Positions 5,235 through 26,702 of a stretch of DNA of 29,071 nucleotides are shown piece by piece. Numbering within the stretch: position 1 is the stretch's first letter; each line of letters begins with the position of its first letter. The DNA is from a virus, in the IMG/VR virus record IMGVR_UViG_3300032829_000032, positions 1 to 29,071 of that record; one strand, written 5' to 3'. The notes under the pieces were generated by a model that worked only from the letters and a program-made list of their open reading frames with translations, did not search any database and was not told where the DNA came from. The position numbers and the translations under genes were made by a program.

Positions 5235-5244
5235 AGTATTTATA
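5235..5244 (+). promoter_or_regulatory. Late-promoter-like motif AGTATTTATA
   Basis: One-base variant of ACTATTTATA, starting 4 nt after the Nudix stop codon. It lies 5 nt before the Cas12a-repeat-like hairpin and 60 nt before the ATG at 5305. If it works like the others, the hairpin would lie at or near the 5' end of the transcript. Confidence 0.5.
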
Positions 5245-5249
5245 TAAAA

Positions 5250-5268
5250 AAATTCTACTATTGTAGAT
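5250..5268 (+). repeat. Solitary Cas12a-repeat-like hairpin (copy 1)
   Basis: AAATTCTACTATTGTAGAT: a 5-bp stem TCTAC/GTAGA (5254-5258 with 5263-5267), loop TATT, terminal T. It differs by one base from the AATTTCTACT(N)3GTAGAT core of type V-A (Cas12a) direct repeats. There is no second repeat at CRISPR spacing, the flanks are almost pure A/T, and no U-tract follows, so it is neither an array nor a normal terminator. A related hairpin is at 12846-12864. The sequence match is seen directly; the biological role is inference. Confidence 0.6.
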
Positions 5269-5304
5269 TAAAAAATAAATAATAAATAAATTTAATAAAA
5301 TTTA

Positions 5305-5547
5305 ATGATGAGTAAACTAGAAACAAGCGGTATTATATATCGTAATGAAGAAATCGTAAAAAATATTTACGGTACAGGTAATGAATATAATGAATCAAAT
5401 AAAAATGCATTATCTGATGGTGATGATAAAGGAAGAGGTGAATTAAACAATAGTGTGGGTACATTAACTGATATTAAAACAAGAAATTCTTTATTAACAA
5501 AAAATAAATATAAAACAGGTTCAGAATATAATGAATCAAATGATTAA
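5305..5547 (+). CDS. Small protein with two copies of a TGxEYNESN motif, 80 aa
   Basis: Not recognised. The protein carries YGTGNEYNESNK near residue 42-54 and YKTGSEYNESND at the very C-terminus, a duplicated Asn/Glu-rich motif. The first two codons are both ATG (5305 and 5308), so the start is uncertain by one residue. It is hydrophilic with no membrane segment. It has an unusually long leader for this genome: about 60 nt from the AGTATTTATA motif, holding the Cas12a-repeat-like hairpin. The next gene starts 21 nt downstream without its own motif. A small virion-associated protein is possible. Confidence 0.7.
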   Translation: MMSKLETSGIIYRNEEIVKNIYGTGNEYNESNKNALSDGDDKGRGELNNSVGTLTDIKTRNSLLTKNKYKTGSEYNESND

Positions 5548-5568
5548 ATAAATATTTTAATTTTTTTA

Positions 5569-6390
5569 ATGTTCCAACTTAAAGAAGATATTATATTAAA
5601 AGAAAATATTAAAGATTTTCGTGCATTATTACTTGAAGCCCCAAGTCAAGTGGATATTATTGATGCTATAAAAAATAAAAAAGTAATGTACATATATTAT
5701 GCGGGTGATACTACCATATCAAAGGGTTTTAGAACCATAGAAATTTATGCTTATGGTATTACAAATCCAGGAAATATAGTAATTAGAGCATTTCAACAAG
5801 CTGGAGCTAGTGATAGTAATAAGGGTTTAAGAAGACCAGTAAGACCAGATCGTGATGCTCTACCACAATGGCGTTTATTTATTGTTAAAAATATAACTTC
5901 TATGCTACCTACAGGTAAACATTTTTTAACATCTCCGGGTAAAATTCGTCCAAAATATAATCCAAATGATAAGCAGATGAAAGAAATTATATTTGCTATT
6001 CAACCGACAGAAGCAGGTGAAATTAAATTTATTGGAAGAGACTCAATAAATATGCCAGATGTAACGCAACAACAAGTACCTACAAAAGATAAAGAAAAAA
6101 TTGGAATTGAAGCAAAAAAAAGAAAAGAATTAACAAAACAAGAAATTATTGATTTATATGATTTAGCTAGAAATTATTATAAAAAATCAACAAAAGATTT
6201 TATTGTTATATATAAAGATAATGATTTTAAATTAGATTATGAAAAAAATAGGAATAAGTATGATCCGAAAGATATATTAGGAAATTTAAGAGAATTATTT
6301 GTTAAAATAACTGGTCAGGAAGGATTTAAATTATCTAATAAATGGATAGAAGATCAAAGAAATAATTTTAAAAAAAATTTAAAAAAATAA
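5569..6390 (+). CDS. WYL-like domain phage protein
   Basis: Protein of 273 aa. Residues 28-120 have the pattern of a WYL-type beta-barrel: VDIIDAIKNKKVMYIYYAG, GFRTIEIYAYGI, GNIVIRAFQQAG and LPQWRLFIVKNITSM. WYL domains are ligand-binding modules of bacterial transcription regulators. Here there is no helix-turn-helix domain in front, so a regulator role is not supported. The C-terminal 100 residues are charged and helical (KKRKELTKQEIIDLYDLARN). Codon use is a little less AT-biased at the 5' end. It shares a probable transcript with the 80-aa gene 21 nt upstream. Confident as a gene, moderate for the fold. Confidence 0.8.
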   Translation: MFQLKEDIILKENIKDFRALLLEAPSQVDIIDAIKNKKVMYIYYAGDTTISKGFRTIEIYAYGITNPGNIVIRAFQQAGASDSNKGLRRPVRPDRDALPQWRLFIVKNITSMLPTGKHFLTSPGKIRPKYNPNDKQMKEIIFAIQPTEAGEIKFIGRDSINMPDVTQQQVPTKDKEKIGIEAKKRKELTKQEIIDLYDLARNYYKKSTKDFIVIYKDNDFKLDYEKNRNKYDPKDILGNLRELFVKITGQEGFKLSNKWIEDQRNNFKKNLKK

Positions 6391-6409
6391 TATTTTTTAA
6401 ATAAAATAT

Positions 6410-6419
6410 ACTATTTATA
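6410..6419 (+). promoter_or_regulatory. Late-promoter-like motif ACTATTTATA
   Basis: Exact motif 22 nt before the ATG at 6442, in the gap after the WYL-like gene. Confidence 0.6.
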
Positions 6420-6441
6420 AAAAATAATAAAATTTTATAAA

Positions 6442-7215
6442 ATGAAAACTCTTAATTTAGATAAGTTAAAAGAAGAAATAAGTAATTCTAAACAACAAAA
6501 TAATCAAGCAGTACAGCCTAAAGATTTGTTTTTACATGGTATTATGGAAGCATGGAAAACTGGTAGACCAAATCAAGCAACAAATATAATAAAAAATGTT
6601 GATTATAAAACAGAAATAAAACAATCACAAAAAGGTGGTCCTGTATTAGGTAGTGATAAAACATTAAATCCTGATATAATGCAACATGTTATAAATGAAT
6701 CTGAAAATAGTACATCTTTTAATAATATTAATGAAGTTAATACAGCACAACAAAATAATAATTTAAAATTATCTGTTAATAAATTAAATGAAAATGTTGA
6801 TAGAGATGAATTATTAGATGCTGAACAAGATAGAAGAATAAGAGAATATAAAAAAATATATCAAAATTATCCTGGTTTACCAAATGCTTGGTTGCCACCA
6901 GAAAATAAAAATTTAAATGAAAATAATGCTTCATATAAGAATAACATGCAAGAATCAATGCCAACAATGATAAATGAAGAAGTAATAAATGGCATTGAGC
7001 AAAGAATTTTTAATAATATTAATGAAAATTTAGTTTTTGAACTTAAAGATGTACTAAAAAATACTATTATTGAATTATATACTATTGATAAAATTAAGAA
7101 TACATTACTTGAAAATACTGAAATTACTAAAAAAATTATAAATGATAATAAACAAATAATAAAACAAATAATTATTGAAACAATAAAAGAATTACAAAAT
7201 AAATCTAAAAAATAA
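6442..7215 (+). CDS. Hypothetical protein with helical C-terminus, 257 aa
   Basis: Not recognised. The N-terminal part has a conserved-looking stretch (VQPKDLFLHGIMEAWKTGRP), the middle is Asn-rich and probably disordered, and a basic/acidic patch (DAEQDRRIREYKKIYQNYPG) precedes NAWLPPENK. Residues 175-257 are predicted long amphipathic helices rich in Ile/Asn/Glu/Lys. The gene has its own late-type motif and is closed by a strong terminator 31 nt after the stop, so it is a single-gene transcription unit. A structural or assembly role is plausible from position only. Confidence 0.75.
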   Translation: MKTLNLDKLKEEISNSKQQNNQAVQPKDLFLHGIMEAWKTGRPNQATNIIKNVDYKTEIKQSQKGGPVLGSDKTLNPDIMQHVINESENSTSFNNINEVNTAQQNNNLKLSVNKLNENVDRDELLDAEQDRRIREYKKIYQNYPGLPNAWLPPENKNLNENNASYKNNMQESMPTMINEEVINGIEQRIFNNINENLVFELKDVLKNTIIELYTIDKIKNTLLENTEITKKIINDNKQIIKQIIIETIKELQNKSKK

Positions 7216-7246
7216 TTTGTAATTTTATATTATAATTTATATATTT

Positions 7247-7278
7247 AAATCCTGAATTTTAAAAATTTAGGATTTTTT
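7247..7278 (+). terminator. Factor-independent terminator after 7215
   Basis: AAATCCT (7247-7253) pairs with AGGATTT (7269-7275), extended inward by A/T pairs, followed by a T-run (7273-7278). Separates the 6442 and 7325 genes. Confidence 0.8.
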
Positions 7279-7295
7279 ATTTAATGAGTTTATTA

Positions 7296-7305
7296 ACTAT
7301 TTATA
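7296..7305 (+). promoter_or_regulatory. Late-promoter-like motif ACTATTTATA
   Basis: Exact motif 19 nt before the ATG at 7325, just after the terminator at 7247-7278, so the downstream gene needs a new promoter here. Confidence 0.65.
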
Positions 7306-7324
7306 TTAAAATATAATTTTTATT

Positions 7325-10066
7325 ATGAATTTTAATGTTAATGAATTTGAAAGTATAAAATCTTTTAATGGAAGAAAAGAATATGCTGATAATAATTTAC
7401 AAAGATTAGGTTCTGGCTCAGGTAGAATTGTATATGCTATTGATGATAATAAAGTTCTTAAATTAGCAAAAAATAATAAAGGGATAGCACAAAATCAAGC
7501 AGAAATTAATTTAAGTAATGAATATTATGAAAATATATTAGCTAAAGTATTAGATTATGATAATAATTATTTATGGATAATTTCAGAAAGGACAAAAAAA
7601 ATAACTCCAACTAGATTTACACAATTAACAAATGTTAAATTAAATGATTTAAATATATTTTTAAGAAACTATGATGCTGAATTACATGGAAAAAGGCCTA
7701 TATTTTCAATGTCTAAAGAATTAAATGATGAATTATATAATAATGAATTTGTAAGTGAATTATTAAATTTTATTTCAGATACAAACTCAAATGTTGGAGA
7801 TATGGCAAGAATTTCAACTTATGGTGAAATTAATAGAAAAGGAACTCCAATGGCTGTTTTAAATGATTATGGTTTAACACATGAAGTTTATGATAGTTTT
7901 TATAGTAGAAAATTTCAAGAATCATATCAAATTGATGAATTGTTAGATTTAAATAAAGAAGATGAATTAACAAATTTTGTTAATCCTTGGTATGATCATA
8001 ATTTAGGTTTTGGATTAGAACCACAACATGTAGATGAATCAATTGAAAATTTAAAGCAAAAGGATAGTGATATTATTGCTTATAATATTAATAAAAAATT
8101 AAACATAGGAAATAAACCAATGTTTTTATCTAAAGGTAAAAATGGCTATGCTTATAATCTTGGAAATAATAAAATATTAAAAATTACAACAGATATTAGT
8201 GAAGCTATTGAAAGTAAAAAAATTTTAAATAAAAAAAATAATCATATTGCTGATATTTATAATGTTTTTCAAATAGAATATAATAATAAAATTTTTTATG
8301 CTATTATTTTAGAAAAATTAAAAATTAATCCTGAATTATTTAAATCATATTATAATTTTTTTGATAAATTATTCATATCATTATTTAATGAAGATTATTA
8401 TACAATTTTAATGTTTTATTTTAGAAATAAAAATGCATATGATGAAAAATTTAATTCTGAAATAAATAAACATTTATCTAAATTTATTGATAAATATAAA
8501 TTTTATAATGAATTATTGGCTATTATTAATGAACAAAAACAAAATGGAATAAAAAATAGTGATTTTCTTAATCCATATAATTTAGGATATAAATCAAATG
8601 GAAATTTAGCAGTTTTTGATTTAGGTTCTGGTGATGAATTAGAATATTATAAGTTTGCTGGTAAAAAACCTGAAACAATAAAAGTTGAAAGTGAAAATAT
8701 TAATGAACGAATAAAATCATATATGCCAGGAAGTAAAGAAATTATGATTAGAAGAAAATGTATGCTTGGCGGTAATGAAGATGGTACTTCTGAACCATGT
8801 AATCAAGGTGATATAAACAATATTATTTTAAAATCAATAAAAGAAAATTTCAATATTAATGAATCAAGATTAATAACTGAAAGAACTGGTGATATTGAAT
8901 ATGGTTGTGCTATGTTAGGATTAGATATTTCTAATTGGAATAATATTACATTAATGATTGAAAAAGATGATATTTATGATAAAGAAGGATATAATATTGA
9001 AAAAGAGCCGCATGTAACATTATTATATGGTTTTAAAGAAAATGTTAAGGCAAATGATGTATTTGATATATTTAAAGCGATTTCATCAATTGAACCATTT
9101 CAAATAATTGTTACAGGTATTTCATATTTTGAAAATGAAGAATTTGATGTTGTTAAATTAGATGTTGAATTAACAAAAAATTTAAAAAGATTAAATAGAT
9201 ATATGAAAGAATTACCATATGAAAAAAGTGTTCAATTTGGTAGTAAAGATAATTATATACCACACATTACAATTGCATATGTAAAAAAAGGAACAGGTAA
9301 GAAATATAAAAAAATATTTGATGAAAAAATATATTTAGTAGCAAATAAATTAGTATATTCAGATAAAAACAAAAATAAAATAACATTAGATTTAAACAAT
9401 GGTAAAATTATTGAAGAAAATGTGAATTTAAATAAAAATAATTTATTAAATTTAATTGAGTCAGTTATTAATGAAAATATTGATGGACAGCCAGAAAAAC
9501 AATTAAAATTAAATGTAAATTATATTGATAAAACAGAATTAAAAAATGAAAAATGTTTAAATTGTGGATGGTTTAAAAATGATTATTATGGCCAATGTAA
9601 AATTGTTGAAGGACAAGTAAATCAAGATGGATGGTGTAATTTATGGGGCACTAAACAGTTTTGTAATGAAGAATATACTCAAGATATTATAAAAATTAAT
9701 ATTAATAAAAATAATTTATTAAATTTAATCGAATCAGTTATTAATGAATCTGAAAGTAAATATTCAGAAATAAAACAATCTTTATTGAATTCTAAAAGTA
9801 TTCCTAAAGAAATGAAAGAAAAAATTTTACCTTATATAACATCTGGTTCAAAATATCATACAAGTAAAAAAGGAAACGGTGGTGTTATTACTGAATTATT
9901 AAAACCTAAAGAATTTACTAATAAAACTCCAAAATCTTCAGGTGTTTCATTGGGTGCTGATAAAAAAGGATTTTTTTGTTTTACTCATAGAGCAAGTTCA
10001 AAACGTTATGAATCTCCAGAAAAAATTCCGATTAAAGATATTGAATTTATAGAATCAACAGGATAA
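7325..10066 (+). CDS. Multi-domain protein: two kinase-like modules, 2H phosphoesterase, four-Cys module
   Basis: 913 aa, modular. Residues 25-190 are kinase-like: Gly-rich loop LGSGSGRIVYAID (28-40), VLKLAK with K46, and NDYGLT (180-185) at the DFG position. Residues 265-440 repeat the theme in weaker form: SKGKNGYAYNLGNNKILKI and FDLGSG. A short Cys motif (CMLGGNEDGTSEPCNQGDIN, 479-498) follows. Residues 520-690 are a 2H phosphoesterase with both signature motifs, PHVTLLYGF (H563, T565) and PHITIAYV (H647, T649). Residues 744-771 hold four Cys (C744, C747, C758, C771) in a pattern like small metal- or FeS-binding modules. NKNNLLNLIESVINE occurs twice (703-717, 794-808), flanking that module. 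A final module ends GFFCFTHRASSK. No canonical kinase catalytic HRD loop was seen, so kinase activity is doubtful. The arrangement fits phage polyvalent proteins (inference). Confidence 0.85.
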   Translation: MNFNVNEFESIKSFNGRKEYADNNLQRLGSGSGRIVYAIDDNKVLKLAKNNKGIAQNQAEINLSNEYYENILAKVLDYDNNYLWIISERTKKITPTRFTQLTNVKLNDLNIFLRNYDAELHGKRPIFSMSKELNDELYNNEFVSELLNFISDTNSNVGDMARISTYGEINRKGTPMAVLNDYGLTHEVYDSFYSRKFQESYQIDELLDLNKEDELTNFVNPWYDHNLGFGLEPQHVDESIENLKQKDSDIIAYNINKKLNIGNKPMFLSKGKNGYAYNLGNNKILKITTDISEAIESKKILNKKNNHIADIYNVFQIEYNNKIFYAIILEKLKINPELFKSYYNFFDKLFISLFNEDYYTILMFYFRNKNAYDEKFNSEINKHLSKFIDKYKFYNELLAIINEQKQNGIKNSDFLNPYNLGYKSNGNLAVFDLGSGDELEYYKFAGKKPETIKVESENINERIKSYMPGSKEIMIRRKCMLGGNEDGTSEPCNQGDINNIILKSIKENFNINESRLITERTGDIEYGCAMLGLDISNWNNITLMIEKDDIYDKEGYNIEKEPHVTLLYGFKENVKANDVFDIFKAISSIEPFQIIVTGISYFENEEFDVVKLDVELTKNLKRLNRYMKELPYEKSVQFGSKDNYIPHITIAYVKKGTGKKYKKIFDEKIYLVANKLVYSDKNKNKITLDLNNGKIIEENVNLNKNNLLNLIESVINENIDGQPEKQLKLNVNYIDKTELKNEKCLNCGWFKNDYYGQCKIVEGQVNQDGWCNLWGTKQFCNEEYTQDIIKININKNNLLNLIESVINESESKYSEIKQSLLNSKSIPKEMKEKILPYITSGSKYHTSKKGNGGVITELLKPKEFTNKTPKSSGVSLGADKKGFFCFTHRASSKRYESPEKIPIKDIEFIESTG
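9431..9748 (+). repeat. 45-nt direct repeat flanking the four-Cys module
   Basis: 9431-9475 and 9704-9748 encode the identical peptide NKNNLLNLIESVINE and differ only at a few silent bases (ATTGAGTCA versus ATCGAATCA). The copies bracket the Cys-rich insert, suggesting that the module was gained or can be lost by recombination between them. Confidence 0.85.
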
Positions 10067-10074
10067 TAAAATAA

Positions 10075-10084
10075 ACTATTTATA
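10075..10084 (+). promoter_or_regulatory. Late-promoter-like motif ACTATTTATA
   Basis: Exact motif 13 nt before the ATG at 10098, the shortest motif-to-start distance in the window. Confidence 0.6.
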
Positions 10085-10097
10085 ATAAAATAATATA

Positions 10098-10955
10098 ATG
10101 TTACAAAAACAAAAACATATTCCAAATATATCTATGCCATATACTGAAGTAATAAAAAAATTACAAGATGAAAATATGGAATATAAATTAATAACAATTG
10201 ATCCAATTTATTTAAAACCTTTAAATAAGGTTATAAATGGAAATAAAATATCAAAATTTGATAATAATGATGATCCAATTTATATAACAGAAGATTTAAA
10301 TATTATTGATGGACATTATAGAGTTGCAAATGCATTATCAAATAATAAAATGATAAAAGCTGTCAGAATTTTAGATACTTTAGAAAATGCTTTAAGAGTT
10401 TTAAATAAAATTCAGGATATTTTTGATTATGAAAAGCAAAGAAATTTAGAAGAAGTTGCAGCACAAGATTATATTAATGATTTTAATGATCAAGATAGTG
10501 GAATAAAAAATGATGATAATGAAGTTGCTGATGGAATAAATGGAAATTATAATTTTATTAGCTTATTAGAAAAAGATTTATATAATAATGAAAATGCTGA
10601 TAATTTAAAAAATAAACAAAAATTAATTGGTTATAGAAAATCACCTATAAATGAAAAATCTAATATTGGTAATTTCTTTTTATTAAATCCAAATGATGAA
10701 TATAATAATAAATTTGAAATTGAATTTGAAAATCTTTTAGATTTATCTAATTGGGAATTAAATGATGATAATCAAAATAATCCAATTGAAATATTATCAT
10801 TATTATGGTTTCCAAATATTGATTTTAATGTTTTATCTGTTCAATATGGTGTTCCTACAATTAATTTAATTAATAAAGCAATAACTGAAAAAGCTAAAAT
10901 GATGAATTATGACGGAATAAGATATAATGATAAAATTTTACATGCTTTAAAATAA
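10098..10955 (+). CDS. ParB/Srx-like domain with a possible ADP-ribosyltransferase-like C-terminus
   Basis: Residues 30-95 match the ParB N-terminal fold: KLITIDPIYLKPLNKV, then DDPIYITEDLNIIDGHYRVANAL (DGHYR at 71-75) and KAVRIL. In this superfamily the DGHxR loop binds nucleotide or phosphate. No helix-turn-helix DNA-binding domain follows, so chromosome-partition function is unlikely. After a charged linker, residues 176-285 (IGYRKSPINE, IGNFFLLNPNDEY, EFENLLDLSNWEL, NYDGIRYNDK) resemble the ADP-ribosyltransferase-like domains of phage polyvalent proteins; this is pattern recognition and weaker. It directly follows the multi-domain gene with its own late-type motif. Confidence 0.8.
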   Translation: MLQKQKHIPNISMPYTEVIKKLQDENMEYKLITIDPIYLKPLNKVINGNKISKFDNNDDPIYITEDLNIIDGHYRVANALSNNKMIKAVRILDTLENALRVLNKIQDIFDYEKQRNLEEVAAQDYINDFNDQDSGIKNDDNEVADGINGNYNFISLLEKDLYNNENADNLKNKQKLIGYRKSPINEKSNIGNFFLLNPNDEYNNKFEIEFENLLDLSNWELNDDNQNNPIEILSLLWFPNIDFNVLSVQYGVPTINLINKAITEKAKMMNYDGIRYNDKILHALK

Positions 10956-10970
10956 TAAATATAAAATTAA

Positions 10971-10980
10971 AGTATTTATA
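10971..10980 (+). promoter_or_regulatory. Late-promoter-like motif AGTATTTATA
   Basis: One-base variant of ACTATTTATA (same C-to-G change as at 5235), 17 nt before the ATG at 10998. Confidence 0.55.
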
Positions 10981-10997
10981 ATAAATAATAAAAAACT

Positions 10998-11357
10998 ATG
11001 AATAATTATAAAATAACAAATATTACAAGTCAATTAGGAAAAAGAGATTTAATGTATAATAAATCATTAAATATTGAATATGTTACAGGTTTTGAAAAAA
11101 AAACATATATTTTACAGCCAAATGAAACATTATTTATTACAATAAAATCATTACCATTATCTGTTCATAAATTAAGAATGAAAAAATTTGTTATTGTTAG
11201 TGAAGTTGATGATCAAACAATAGTAAATGAATATAATAAAAAAAATGTTGTAAATAATAATTTTATTGTACCATCATTAGATATAATACAAAAAACAGAA
11301 GATAATGTTATTGAAACAAAAAAAATTAAAAAAAATACGAAGCATGACGAAAAATAA
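10998..11357 (+). CDS. Conserved-looking small protein, 119 aa
   Basis: Function unknown. Residues 1-75 look like a compact beta-rich domain (NITSQLGKRDLMYNKSLNIE, KKTYILQPNETLFITIKSLP, LSVHKLRMKKFVIVSEVDD); the rest is a charged, probably flexible tail ending KKNTKHDEK. The beta domain with PxETLxI resembles small virion or neck-type accessory proteins, but I cannot name it. It has its own late-type motif and a strong terminator 28 nt after the stop, so it ends a transcription unit. Confidence 0.75.
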   Translation: MNNYKITNITSQLGKRDLMYNKSLNIEYVTGFEKKTYILQPNETLFITIKSLPLSVHKLRMKKFVIVSEVDDQTIVNEYNKKNVVNNNFIVPSLDIIQKTEDNVIETKKIKKNTKHDEK

Positions 11358-11385
11358 ATGATGATTAAATTATGCAGTATTATTT

Positions 11386-11413
11386 AACCGATAAAAATTT
11401 TATCGGTTTTTTT
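11386..11413 (+). terminator. Factor-independent terminator after 11357
   Basis: Perfect 11-bp inverted repeat AACCGATAAAA (11386-11396) with TTTTATCGGTT (11398-11408), running into a seven-T tract (11407-11413). Confidence 0.85.
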
Positions 11414-11443
11414 ATTTTATTTAAGTCTTTTCAAAATTTTCAT

Positions 11444-11453
11444 ACTATTTATT
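11444..11453 (+). promoter_or_regulatory. Late-promoter-like motif ACTATTTATT
   Basis: Nine of ten match to ACTATTTATA, downstream of a terminator and 40 nt before the glycosyltransferase ATG at 11494. This is the longest gap without an intervening element. Confidence 0.5.
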
Positions 11454-11493
11454 ATAAAATATAATAATTTTTAATAAAAATTTATAGAATTTT

Positions 11494-12867
11494 ATGGAAG
11501 AAAAAAAGAGAGTTTTATTTTATTGTGTTGATCAAGCTGGTGTATTCTATTTTAGACAATTAACACCAGCTGTTGAGTTAGATAGAAATCATTCAGATGA
11601 GTTTCATATCGATATTGAAAAACAATTAGATTTTAATGATCCTAATTTAGTTGAAAAATTAAAAACATATAATATAATTCATTATCATCGTCAATTAGCT
11701 CCAACAATTCCTTTGATGTTAAAATTATCTAAAGAATTAAAAAATGCTGGTGTAAAATTAGTTATGGATATTGATGATTATTGGTTTTTAGATAAAAAAC
11801 ATCCTATGTATGCTTTATCTATTGAACATAAAATGCATCAAGATATTTTAGATAATTTAAAAATTGCTGATTATGTTACTACAACAACTGAATTATTTGC
11901 TGAAGAAATAAAAAAAGTAACTGGTAAGGATAATGTTATTGTTTTATATAATGCTATTAATCCTGATTGGATGAAACAATTTCAAAATAATAGAAAACCC
12001 GATCCTGATGGTTTAGTTAGAATAAGTTATGCTGGAGGATCTTCGCATTTAGGCGATTTACAACAACTTGAGGGAGTTATTAACTTTCTTGAAACAGATC
12101 CTGAAACAAAAGGAAAGTATAAAATAAATCTTATTGGTTGGGATGCTGCTGGTACAACAAATGAAATTAAATTTAATGAAGAACTTCAAAAAGAACTTCA
12201 AGAAAAAAATCTTTGGAATCAAAACATTATTAATTTTATTAATAAATCAAAAGGAAATATTGATGTTGTACCAATGATACCTAAAGATTTAAAGGATAAA
12301 TATAGAAATAAAATGTTTTTAAATAAACAAAGACCTATTAAATCCGAAGAATCTGTTTATTATCAATATGAAAAAATATTAACTGATAATTATAGATTAT
12401 TAAAAGATGATAATTATAAAAAATGGTTAATGAATTTTCAAAGATTAGATTATCCAGGTAAACAATATTTTACACGTATTTGGACAAAACCAGTAAACAT
12501 GTATGCTGAAGCATTAGATCAAACAGATATTGTAATTGCTCCACTTGATGATAATAAATTTAATAATTTTAAAAGTAATTTAAAGCAGGTAGAGTGCTGG
12601 TCAAGAAAATTACCTATTGTATGCTCAGATATGGCTCCATACAATATTGATGGAAAAAATGAAGAAAATTGTATTTTAATATCTACAAAAAATAATAGTC
12701 ATAAATATTGGAAAAAAGCATTAAAACGTTTAATACTTGATAAAGAATTAAGAGAAAAATTGGGTAATCAATTGTATGAAGATTTTAAAGAAAAATATCA
12801 TCTTACAAATGTTACAAAAAAACGTGCTGAATTTTATAAAAAAATAATTTCTACTAATGTAGATTAA
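11494..12867 (+). CDS. GT-B fold glycosyltransferase (GT4-like)
   Basis: 457 aa glycosyltransferase, expected to transfer a sugar from an activated donor. The N-terminal Rossmann-like half starts KKRVLFYCVDQAGVFYFRQL, then NIIHYHRQLAP and VKLVMDIDDYWF. A second glycosyltransferase-type segment is IADYVTTTTELFAEEIKK (124-141) followed by VLYNAINPDW. The C-terminal donor-binding half has TDIVIAPLDDNKF (344-356) and NLKQVECWSRKLPIVCSDM (362-380), with the conserved Glu (E368) of GT4 enzymes. It is full length for the family. Located among virion genes, it may glycosylate virion proteins, the phage DNA or a host surface glycan; the sequence does not decide. Its last codons overlap the second Cas12a-repeat-like hairpin. 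Confidence 0.9.
   Translation: MEEKKRVLFYCVDQAGVFYFRQLTPAVELDRNHSDEFHIDIEKQLDFNDPNLVEKLKTYNIIHYHRQLAPTIPLMLKLSKELKNAGVKLVMDIDDYWFLDKKHPMYALSIEHKMHQDILDNLKIADYVTTTTELFAEEIKKVTGKDNVIVLYNAINPDWMKQFQNNRKPDPDGLVRISYAGGSSHLGDLQQLEGVINFLETDPETKGKYKINLIGWDAAGTTNEIKFNEELQKELQEKNLWNQNIINFINKSKGNIDVVPMIPKDLKDKYRNKMFLNKQRPIKSEESVYYQYEKILTDNYRLLKDDNYKKWLMNFQRLDYPGKQYFTRIWTKPVNMYAEALDQTDIVIAPLDDNKFNNFKSNLKQVECWSRKLPIVCSDMAPYNIDGKNEENCILISTKNNSHKYWKKALKRLILDKELREKLGNQLYEDFKEKYHLTNVTKKRAEFYKKIISTNVD
12846..12864 (+). repeat. Solitary Cas12a-repeat-like hairpin (copy 2)
   Basis: AATTTCTACTAATGTAGAT: stem TCTAC/GTAGA (12850-12854 with 12859-12863), loop TAAT, preceded by AATT and followed by T. This is an exact match to the conserved parts of Cas12a direct repeats. 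It lies inside the glycosyltransferase frame, encoding its last residues before the TAA at 12865. The following sequence is A/T only, as at copy 1. No neighbouring repeats occur at CRISPR spacing. Confidence 0.65.
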
Positions 12868-12908: not shown

Positions 12909-13778
12909 ATGGAAACAAAAGAAAAAGAATTAATGAATGCTGAATTATTAAAAAAATTAATAGAAAAAAGAAAATTAGAAGAAAATAAACAAAAAGAAAT
13001 TAATAATGAACTTAAAATTAATAAAGAAAATAGATTTAAAAATAAAAAATTTCTTAATAATTGGTTTATTAAAAAAATTTTAAAATTCAAGAAAGAAACT
13101 AAATATGAAAAATTAATAAAAAAAATTGAATCTTTAGAAAATGAATTAAGTAAATTAAAAAATTTAGATTTTGAATATATTTCACGTAATTATAAACGTG
13201 AAAAAATAATAAATAATATTATTAAAGCAAATAATAATTTTGAAAAATATTTAAAGAAAAAGAAAAAAGATAATTCTAAATATAGAATATCTAATGAAAA
13301 AAATATATTAAATGATATTAAAGATTTAATTTTTAATTCTGTAAAACTTAATTATACTGTAACAAAAATATTAAATGAAATAAATTATATTAAAGAATTT
13401 TATCAATCTGATTATGAAAAAATGAAAAAAGAATATAATGAAATTTTAGATGATATAGAAAAAAATAAAAATAATAATTTACATAATTTATTAAAAGAAG
13501 ATGATAAATTTATTTATAATTTTTATATTTTTATTAAAATAATTAAAAATTTATTTAAAAAGAAAAATAAATTAACTAGAAATTTAAATAAAAAATCAGA
13601 TATTGTAAAAAAACAATTATTAATTATTAAAGCTTTAGAATTAAATGAAAAAAAAGTATATTATAATCGTATTATTAATAGATATAATAAAATATTTAAT
13701 GAATTTGAATTATTATATAATTTAAATAATAATGATTTAATAATAGAATTAAATAAAATATATTATTCATCGAAATAA
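12909..13778 (+). CDS. Lys/Asn/Glu-rich coiled-coil protein, 289 aa
   Basis: Not recognised. Almost entirely predicted helix, with long heptad-like stretches (EKLIKKIESLENELSKLKNL, residues 67-91) and very high Lys/Asn/Ile/Glu content. Its N-terminus (KEKELMNAELLKKLIEKRK) resembles those of 15670 (MNAELMRKL) and of the broken copies at 13951 and 14202, suggesting a small paralogous family in this region. It starts 41 nt after the glycosyltransferase, with no clear promoter motif, so read-through is likely. The bias is extreme even for this genome, but the uninterrupted frame and helical pattern support a real gene. Confidence 0.7.
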   Translation: METKEKELMNAELLKKLIEKRKLEENKQKEINNELKINKENRFKNKKFLNNWFIKKILKFKKETKYEKLIKKIESLENELSKLKNLDFEYISRNYKREKIINNIIKANNNFEKYLKKKKKDNSKYRISNEKNILNDIKDLIFNSVKLNYTVTKILNEINYIKEFYQSDYEKMKKEYNEILDDIEKNKNNNLHNLLKEDDKFIYNFYIFIKIIKNLFKKKNKLTRNLNKKSDIVKKQLLIIKALELNEKKVYYNRIINRYNKIFNEFELLYNLNNNDLIIELNKIYYSSK

Positions 13779-26050: not shown

Positions 26051-26081
26051 AAAAAAATCCTATAAAAAATTATAGGATTTT
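26051..26081 (-). terminator. Terminator of the outer-membrane protein gene
   Basis: AAAATCCTATAA (26054-26065) pairs with TTATAGGATTTT (26070-26081). On the minus strand the stem is followed by a seven-T tract (A-run at 26051-26057). It is nearly identical to the hairpin at 26677-26702. Confidence 0.8.
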
Positions 26082-26106: not shown

Positions 26107-26604
26107 TTAAAATCTATATACATAGCATAATTTAAATCGTTCAATATTTCCAACACTAAGTAAAAATCCATTATTACTATCAACAAATAATTTAATTGCT
26201 AATTCATAATTTAAATTTGTTGTTCCTTTTCCATAGAAATATGTATTTATTAAAATTGGATCTTCATATATTTTATTTGTCCAAGCTAAACCAATAATTG
26301 GAACAATAAAAAAATTATTTTTTACTATATTAATATTATAACCAATATTGAAAATACTAATTTTTATTTTATTTGCATCATAAGTATGATCTGATGAAAA
26401 ATCTAATTCTTCTCCTTTACCATGTGCAAAATTACTTGAAAAATCACAATAAAATTCTTTATAAGAAAATCCAATATTTAAACCCATATTAGATGATTCT
26501 TTTAAATTAATGCTATAAATAGTAGCACCAATATTTAAATCAACTTGACTATAACTAAAATTAATACTAAATAATAAAACTAATGCAAATAATAAATTTT
26601 TCAT
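26107..26604 (-). CDS. Secreted beta-barrel outer-membrane protein, 165 aa
   Basis: Residues 1-20 are a classic signal peptide (MKNLLFALVLLFSINFSYSQ), with likely cleavage next to Gln20 as is common in Bacteroidota. The mature part alternates hydrophobic and polar residues in short strands (NIGATIYSINL, MGLNIGFSYKEFYCDF, IKISIFNIGYNINIV, NYELAIKLFVDS, FKLCYVYRF) and ends in Phe, the usual signal for outer-membrane barrel insertion. About eight strands fit the length. It is on the opposite strand from the surrounding virion genes, with its own terminator, so it is a moron-like accessory gene. It may alter the infected cell's surface, for example to block superinfection (inference). A host-type promoter was not clear. 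Confidence 0.8.
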   Translation of the reverse strand: MKNLLFALVLLFSINFSYSQVDLNIGATIYSINLKESSNMGLNIGFSYKEFYCDFSSNFAHGKGEELDFSSDHTYDANKIKISIFNIGYNINIVKNNFFIVPIIGLAWTNKIYEDPILINTYFYGKGTTNLNYELAIKLFVDSNNGFLLSVGNIERFKLCYVYRF

Positions 26605-26672: not shown

Positions 26673-26702
26673 AAAAAAATCCTATAATTTCTTATAGGAT
26701 TT
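26673..26702 (-). terminator. Terminator of the small Cys-rich gene
   Basis: AAATCCTATAA (26677-26687) pairs with TTATAGGATTT (26692-26702) around loop TTTC; the minus strand continues into a seven-T tract (26673-26679). Nearly the same hairpin as at 26054-26081. Confidence 0.8.

Follow-up and report, generated by a model that had tools for sequence, protein, structure and literature searches.

The window analysed here, the linear virus record IMGVR_UViG_3300032829_000032 (29,071 bases, very AT-rich), carries two solitary hairpins, e1 and e2, which match the processed core of type V-A (Cas12a) CRISPR repeats, exceed what chance predicts for such a sequence, lie in the 5' leaders of two protein genes and are absent from a sister phage. 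Judged from their sequence, e1 and e2 are plausibly RacrVA-like mimics of the Cas12a repeat placed in mRNA leaders, and hence elements of a known kind; we give this reading a probability of about 0.4. They are not classed here as confirmed Racr elements because their resemblance does not extend over a full repeat. The features concerned are as follows.

5235-5244, plus strand: promoter-like motif AGTATTTATA, of the ANTATTTATA family, which precedes many genes of the window and of the sister
5250-5268, plus strand: e1, hairpin AAATTCTACTATTGTAGAT, Cas12a-repeat-like and different from the processed V-A repeat in a single base (U to A at position -17)
5305-5547, plus strand: 80-aa gene, function unassigned, with e1 in its 5' leader (36 nt from e1 to the ATG)
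11494-12867, plus strand: glycosyltransferase-like open reading frame (phrog_7162, E=1.9e-40), the last codons of which (..IISTNVD and stop) are encoded by e2
12846-12864, plus strand: e2, Cas12a-repeat-like hairpin AATTTCTACTAATGTAGAT, a sequence that certain genuine V-A arrays have, letter for letter, as their processed repeat
12909-13778, plus strand: 289-aa gene, function unassigned, with e2 in its 5' leader (44 nt from e2 to the ATG)

The phage and its probable host

The window encodes a set of tailed-phage proteins (family B DNA polymerase, NUDIX protein, glycosyltransferase, tail tube and baseplate wedge), and a Bacteroidota-type host is likely because protein comparison places two kinds of isolates closest: for the baseplate wedge, Flavobacterium phage immuto (27% identity), and for the polymerase, Salinibacter phages (25% identity). 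No tRNA genes were found in the window, and no Acr or defence genes in the neighbourhood of e1 or e2. No Rfam family matched the whole window at the gathering threshold. At E<=1 there was likewise no match for e1, for e2 or for a region of a true V-A array, and as even a genuine array escapes it, Rfam is unable to detect the V-A repeat. Elsewhere in the window, a near-identical pair of terminator-like hairpins (AAATCCTATAA..TTATAGGATTT, at 26054-26081 and 26677-26702) stands on either side of a minus-strand gene (26107-26604), the product of which resembles a Bacteroidota secreted protein at its start.

Two solitary matches to the core of the V-A repeat

Both hairpins, which a first-pass annotation had described as Cas12a-repeat-like, are present on the plus strand, 7.6 kb apart, and are the only matches in the window to TCTACTN{1,6}GTAGA as well as the only sites within three mismatches of AATTTCTACTATTGTAGAT. 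Each 19-mer folds into a 5-bp stem with a 4-nt loop (-4.8 kcal/mol). The handle of e2 is complete and its 19 bases are identical to the processed direct repeat of V-A arrays (AATTTCTACTNTTGTAGAT), which bears out the annotation's statement that e2 is exact in all conserved positions; its loop, TAAT, is a rare form. The AATT that the annotation had placed in front of the stem is not found in e1, which has AAAT (handle AAATTCTACT) and agrees at 18 of 19 positions with the array repeat of Bacteroidetes HGW-6. The changed base is U-17 (to A), and e1 keeps the pairing bases of the crRNA fold, A-18 with U-10 and U-16 with U-1; a crRNA that lacks A-19 to U-17 is still accepted by FnCas12a (PMC8789034). 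In both elements the match is limited to the 19-nt processed part at the 3' end of the repeat, the full length of which is about 36 nt. By coverage it is thus a partial match, since a full match in SRUFinder requires that 90% or more of a known CRISPR repeat be covered at high identity (coverage threshold taken from PMC10651486).

Neither array nor mini-array lies near e1 or e2, in keeping with the solitary repeat units that define Racr elements and with what the annotation had reported; in contrast with V-A arrays, the window has no second repeat, no spacer and no cas genes. The annotation's argument that two copies speak against chance also stands. For the loose pattern TCTACTN{1,6}GTAGA, dinucleotide shuffling predicts 0.03 occurrences in the window, and for TCTACTN3GTAGAT, Markov models of order 1-3 built from the window predict 0-0.005, compared with the two observed in each case.

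The DNA downstream of both elements is A/T-only, and was therefore regarded by the annotation as useless for a specific guide. Neither the window nor L124 contains a site next to a TTT PAM that these A/U guides match with up to three mismatches, and a loaded Cas12a complex would therefore be idle. The two downstream A/T flanks score 23 against one another and 10-18 against other leaders, a borderline value (the 95% level of shuffles is also 23) which makes a small duplication possible; the 5' flanks of e1 and e2 align to their orthologues in the sister, not to one another.

Position in mRNA leaders

The e1 hairpin is situated between the NUDIX gene (end 5231) and the 80-aa gene (ATG 5305), 5 nt behind the promoter-like motif AGTATTTATA, as the annotation had noted. 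By analogy with the T4 late promoter, which presumably would put the start of the transcript at about the first base of e1, this element is predicted to lie at or near a transcript 5' end. If TATTTATA indeed serves late transcription, its products would appear late for an anti-CRISPR. Among the motif-linked leaders of the window, only that of e1 has a hairpin of this type, and no comparable hairpin was found in the other motif-linked leaders of window or sister; look-alikes with unrelated stems, which the annotation had named as grounds for abandoning its proposal, did not appear in these leaders. The e2 hairpin overlaps the coding end of the open reading frame 11494-12867 and is not purely intergenic. 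Upstream of e2, the only promoter candidate is a degenerate A/T stretch, and neither element has a terminator of its own.

The sister contig (L246/L258) shares 69% identity with the window in the polymerase and 79% in the glycosyltransferase. It encodes an orthologue of the 80-aa protein (43% identical) with the same motif in front and the hairpin absent, and its glycosyltransferase orthologue has a different end, again without the e2 hairpin. Neither e1 nor e2 occurs in the sister or in phages of about 50-60% identity. Across 40 related virus records (1.96 Mb, AT-rich), TCTACTN{2,5}GTAGAT has a single match, with a 2-nt insert (reversed control, 3), and there is no AATTTCTAC-type match. The conservation among related phages that the annotation had named as a check is thus missing, and because the sister and the 40 related records lack them, e1 and e2 are probably recent in the lineage of the window.

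Type V-A arrays and Cas12a in Bacteroidota

The exact e2 19-mer occurs at eight loci in a 257 Gb genome collection, three of them isolated and five in V-A arrays, namely in Granulicatella (Granulicatella seriolae), a Saccharibacteria MAG, a Prevotellaceae MAG, Bacteroidetes HGW-6 (as a variant repeat) and a Clostridia MAG (at an apparent array edge). Cas12a is encoded by all three of the genomes tested among those with the 19-mer in arrays. Among 395 sampled Bacteroidota genomes, those in which Cas12a turned up are the centre genome and one of the other 394, and both Cas12a-bearing genomes contain arrays of AATTTCTACTATTGTAGAT, with the TATT loop of e1. The claim that Cas12a occurs in Bacteroidota is therefore borne out as to its presence, with the same repeat core, but at a frequency of 1/394 outside the centre genome the enzyme is rare there. 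The 393 Bacteroidota genomes without Cas12a hold only 11 isolated AATTTCTACTN{2,5}GTAGAT sites.

Solitary V-A-like repeats in viral DNA

The same pattern, AATTTCTACTN{2,5}GTAGAT, was used to scan IMG/VR, with duplicates and arrays removed; the figures below describe the matches listed, and with genes called as simple open reading frames the proportions are approximate. Among these matches, solitary repeats of the form AATTTCTACT..GTAGAT that have the canonical TNTT loop fall between genes 26 times out of 36 (random sites, about 11%), compared with 8 of 34 for other loop lengths (p=5e-5). The control handle AAATTCTACT, which is that of e1, is intergenic in 0 of 12 listed matches when combined with the TNTT loop (p=9e-6 versus 26/36) and in 11 of 83 over all loops, which is background-like; among listed viral matches with the TAAT loop of e2, only 1 of about 5 was scored intergenic. 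Of the canonical intergenic repeats listed, 18 of 25 are followed by a same-strand gene at a distance of no more than 110 nt; at random intergenic positions the proportion is 30% (p=2e-5). Because of these intergenic, handle-control and same-strand-upstream counts, the solitary V-A repeats of viral DNA look like products of selection, with an apparent need for the AATT handle and a preference for mRNA leaders. If such repeats act as decoys, the upstream excess among the matches listed would suggest that the leader-embedded form is common.

Both e1 and e2 share the leader position of this class upstream of same-strand genes, and differ from its consensus (AATT handle plus TNTT loop) by the AAAT of e1 and the TAAT of e2. 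The class thereby supports the reading of the two hairpins as Cas12a mimics, yet the handle of e1 is of the background type and the loop of e2 is rare. A separate IMG/VR scan for the TATTTATA motif followed by a hairpin returned 53 loci, none with the arrangement seen in the window; several of them are longer-stem terminators. On the reverse strand of one viral contig (L094), three solitary V-A-like repeats with unrelated flanks and the loops TTCA, TTCA and TTCC lie within about 450 nt, and several copies per virus are therefore not unique to the window.

A further group of IMG/VR contigs carries composite repeats. In L051, L052, L070 and L113, a type I-C-like repeat end (..TGTGGATTGAAAC) adjoins a V-A-like hairpin (AATTTCTACTATTGTAGAT or variants), and in L303, L308 and L309 the two occur in reverse order. 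Of 198 Bacteroidota genomes, 23 have the I-C-like end in their arrays. Several composites have a TTTG promoter-like box in front and a GC hairpin with a T run behind, and from their sequence they look like one small RNA directed against two CRISPR types; the composite in L113 (at about 5650-5775) has no match in phage or plasmid collections.

Comparison with known Racr elements and alternative explanations

That phages carry solitary repeats as RNA anti-CRISPRs, a premise of the annotation, is well founded: RacrVA1-3 are solitary V-A repeats for which this activity has been demonstrated experimentally (Camara-Wilpert et al. 2023, PMC10651486), and they rescue the growth of phage from Moraxella Cas12a (PMC10651486). 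Like these, e1 and e2 are solitary V-A repeat-like hairpins in a mobile element, outside any array, for which the proposed action is the occupation of Cas12a. Unlike RacrVA1-3, which came from a search that demanded near full-length repeat matches and from candidates chosen with a predicted promoter (PMC10651486), e1 and e2 match the 19-nt processed core only, sit in the leaders of protein genes and, in e1, deviate by one base. Our literature search found no further work on V-A Racr elements beyond this study, and no description of leader-embedded solitary V-A repeats.

The original Racr proposal is partly supported. In its favour are the non-random likeness to V-A repeats, the intergenic viral class and the lack of look-alike hairpins in other leaders of the phage; the background-like handle of e1 and the core-only match weigh against it, as do the rare loop and the coding overlap of e2, the sister without elements, the lack of an acr neighbour and of an own terminator, and the rarity of Cas12a in Bacteroidota. 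Nearly as likely as a Cas12a decoy is the explanation that e1 and e2 are ordinary leader hairpins which delay degradation by RNase or adjust translation; the likeness of their stem to the Cas12a repeat would then be a coincidence and the second copy the product of a small duplication. Their location 36-44 nt before an ATG, the predicted transcript start at e1 and the e1 handle agree with such a function, and the downstream flank score, although only at the 95% level of shuffles, fits copying. This explanation is at odds with the absence of comparable hairpins from the other motif-linked leaders of window and sister, with a stem and handle that are those of V-A repeats, and with 5' flanks that show no mutual alignment.

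A purely accidental likeness in a genome this rich in A/T, singled out among many windows read, is less likely than either and on the whole improbable. In its favour, stem and handle consist largely of A/T, no preset motif guided the spotting of the elements, and the viral matches with handle AAATTCTACT show that a background class exists; against this, the window holds two copies, whereas the expectation for a single one is 0.005 or less, the 1.96 Mb of AT-rich relatives contain none, and isolated sites are scarce in Bacteroidota genomes without Cas12a. Finally, V-A mini-arrays do occur in viral contigs (L064 and L097), and e1 and e2 might be relics of one, or of a phage-borne array once equipped with spacers against rival phages. 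This is very improbable in view of the A/T-only DNA downstream, the two widely separated sites and the lack of a second or conserved full-length repeat near either; a mini-array origin was rejected for want of a second repeat nearby.

Proposed action and implications

If e1 and e2 are Cas12a mimics, each would be transcribed as a processed V-A repeat mimic within the 5' leader of a phage mRNA, and in a host that bears Cas12a the enzyme would bind the leader hairpin once the mRNA is made. Cas12a may then cut just 5' of the hairpin, at what would be a small cost to the mRNA because e1 is predicted to lie at or near the transcript 5' end, and the bound enzyme would be occupied by an A/U-only 'guide' without a target. 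The benefit to the phage would be a competitive titration of Cas12a, as for RacrVA. Pre-crRNA inserted into a 5' UTR lets Cas12a act on mRNA in yeast (PMC9943656), and LbCas12a is inhibited by excess scaffold RNA (PMC8789034). A more specific version, which we regard as rather doubtful though less so than chance, is that the phage mRNA itself is the decoy, its leader repeat capturing Cas12a with harmless 5' trimming and without a separate gene for a small RNA.

The handle and loop controls used here provide a test, based on sequence only, that separates real Cas12a mimics from chance hairpins. Should the mimic reading of e1 and e2 be true, the users of RNA anti-CRISPRs would include a tailed phage that is AT-rich and probably infects Bacteroidota, and these would exist in a leader-embedded form that searches for full-length repeats miss.
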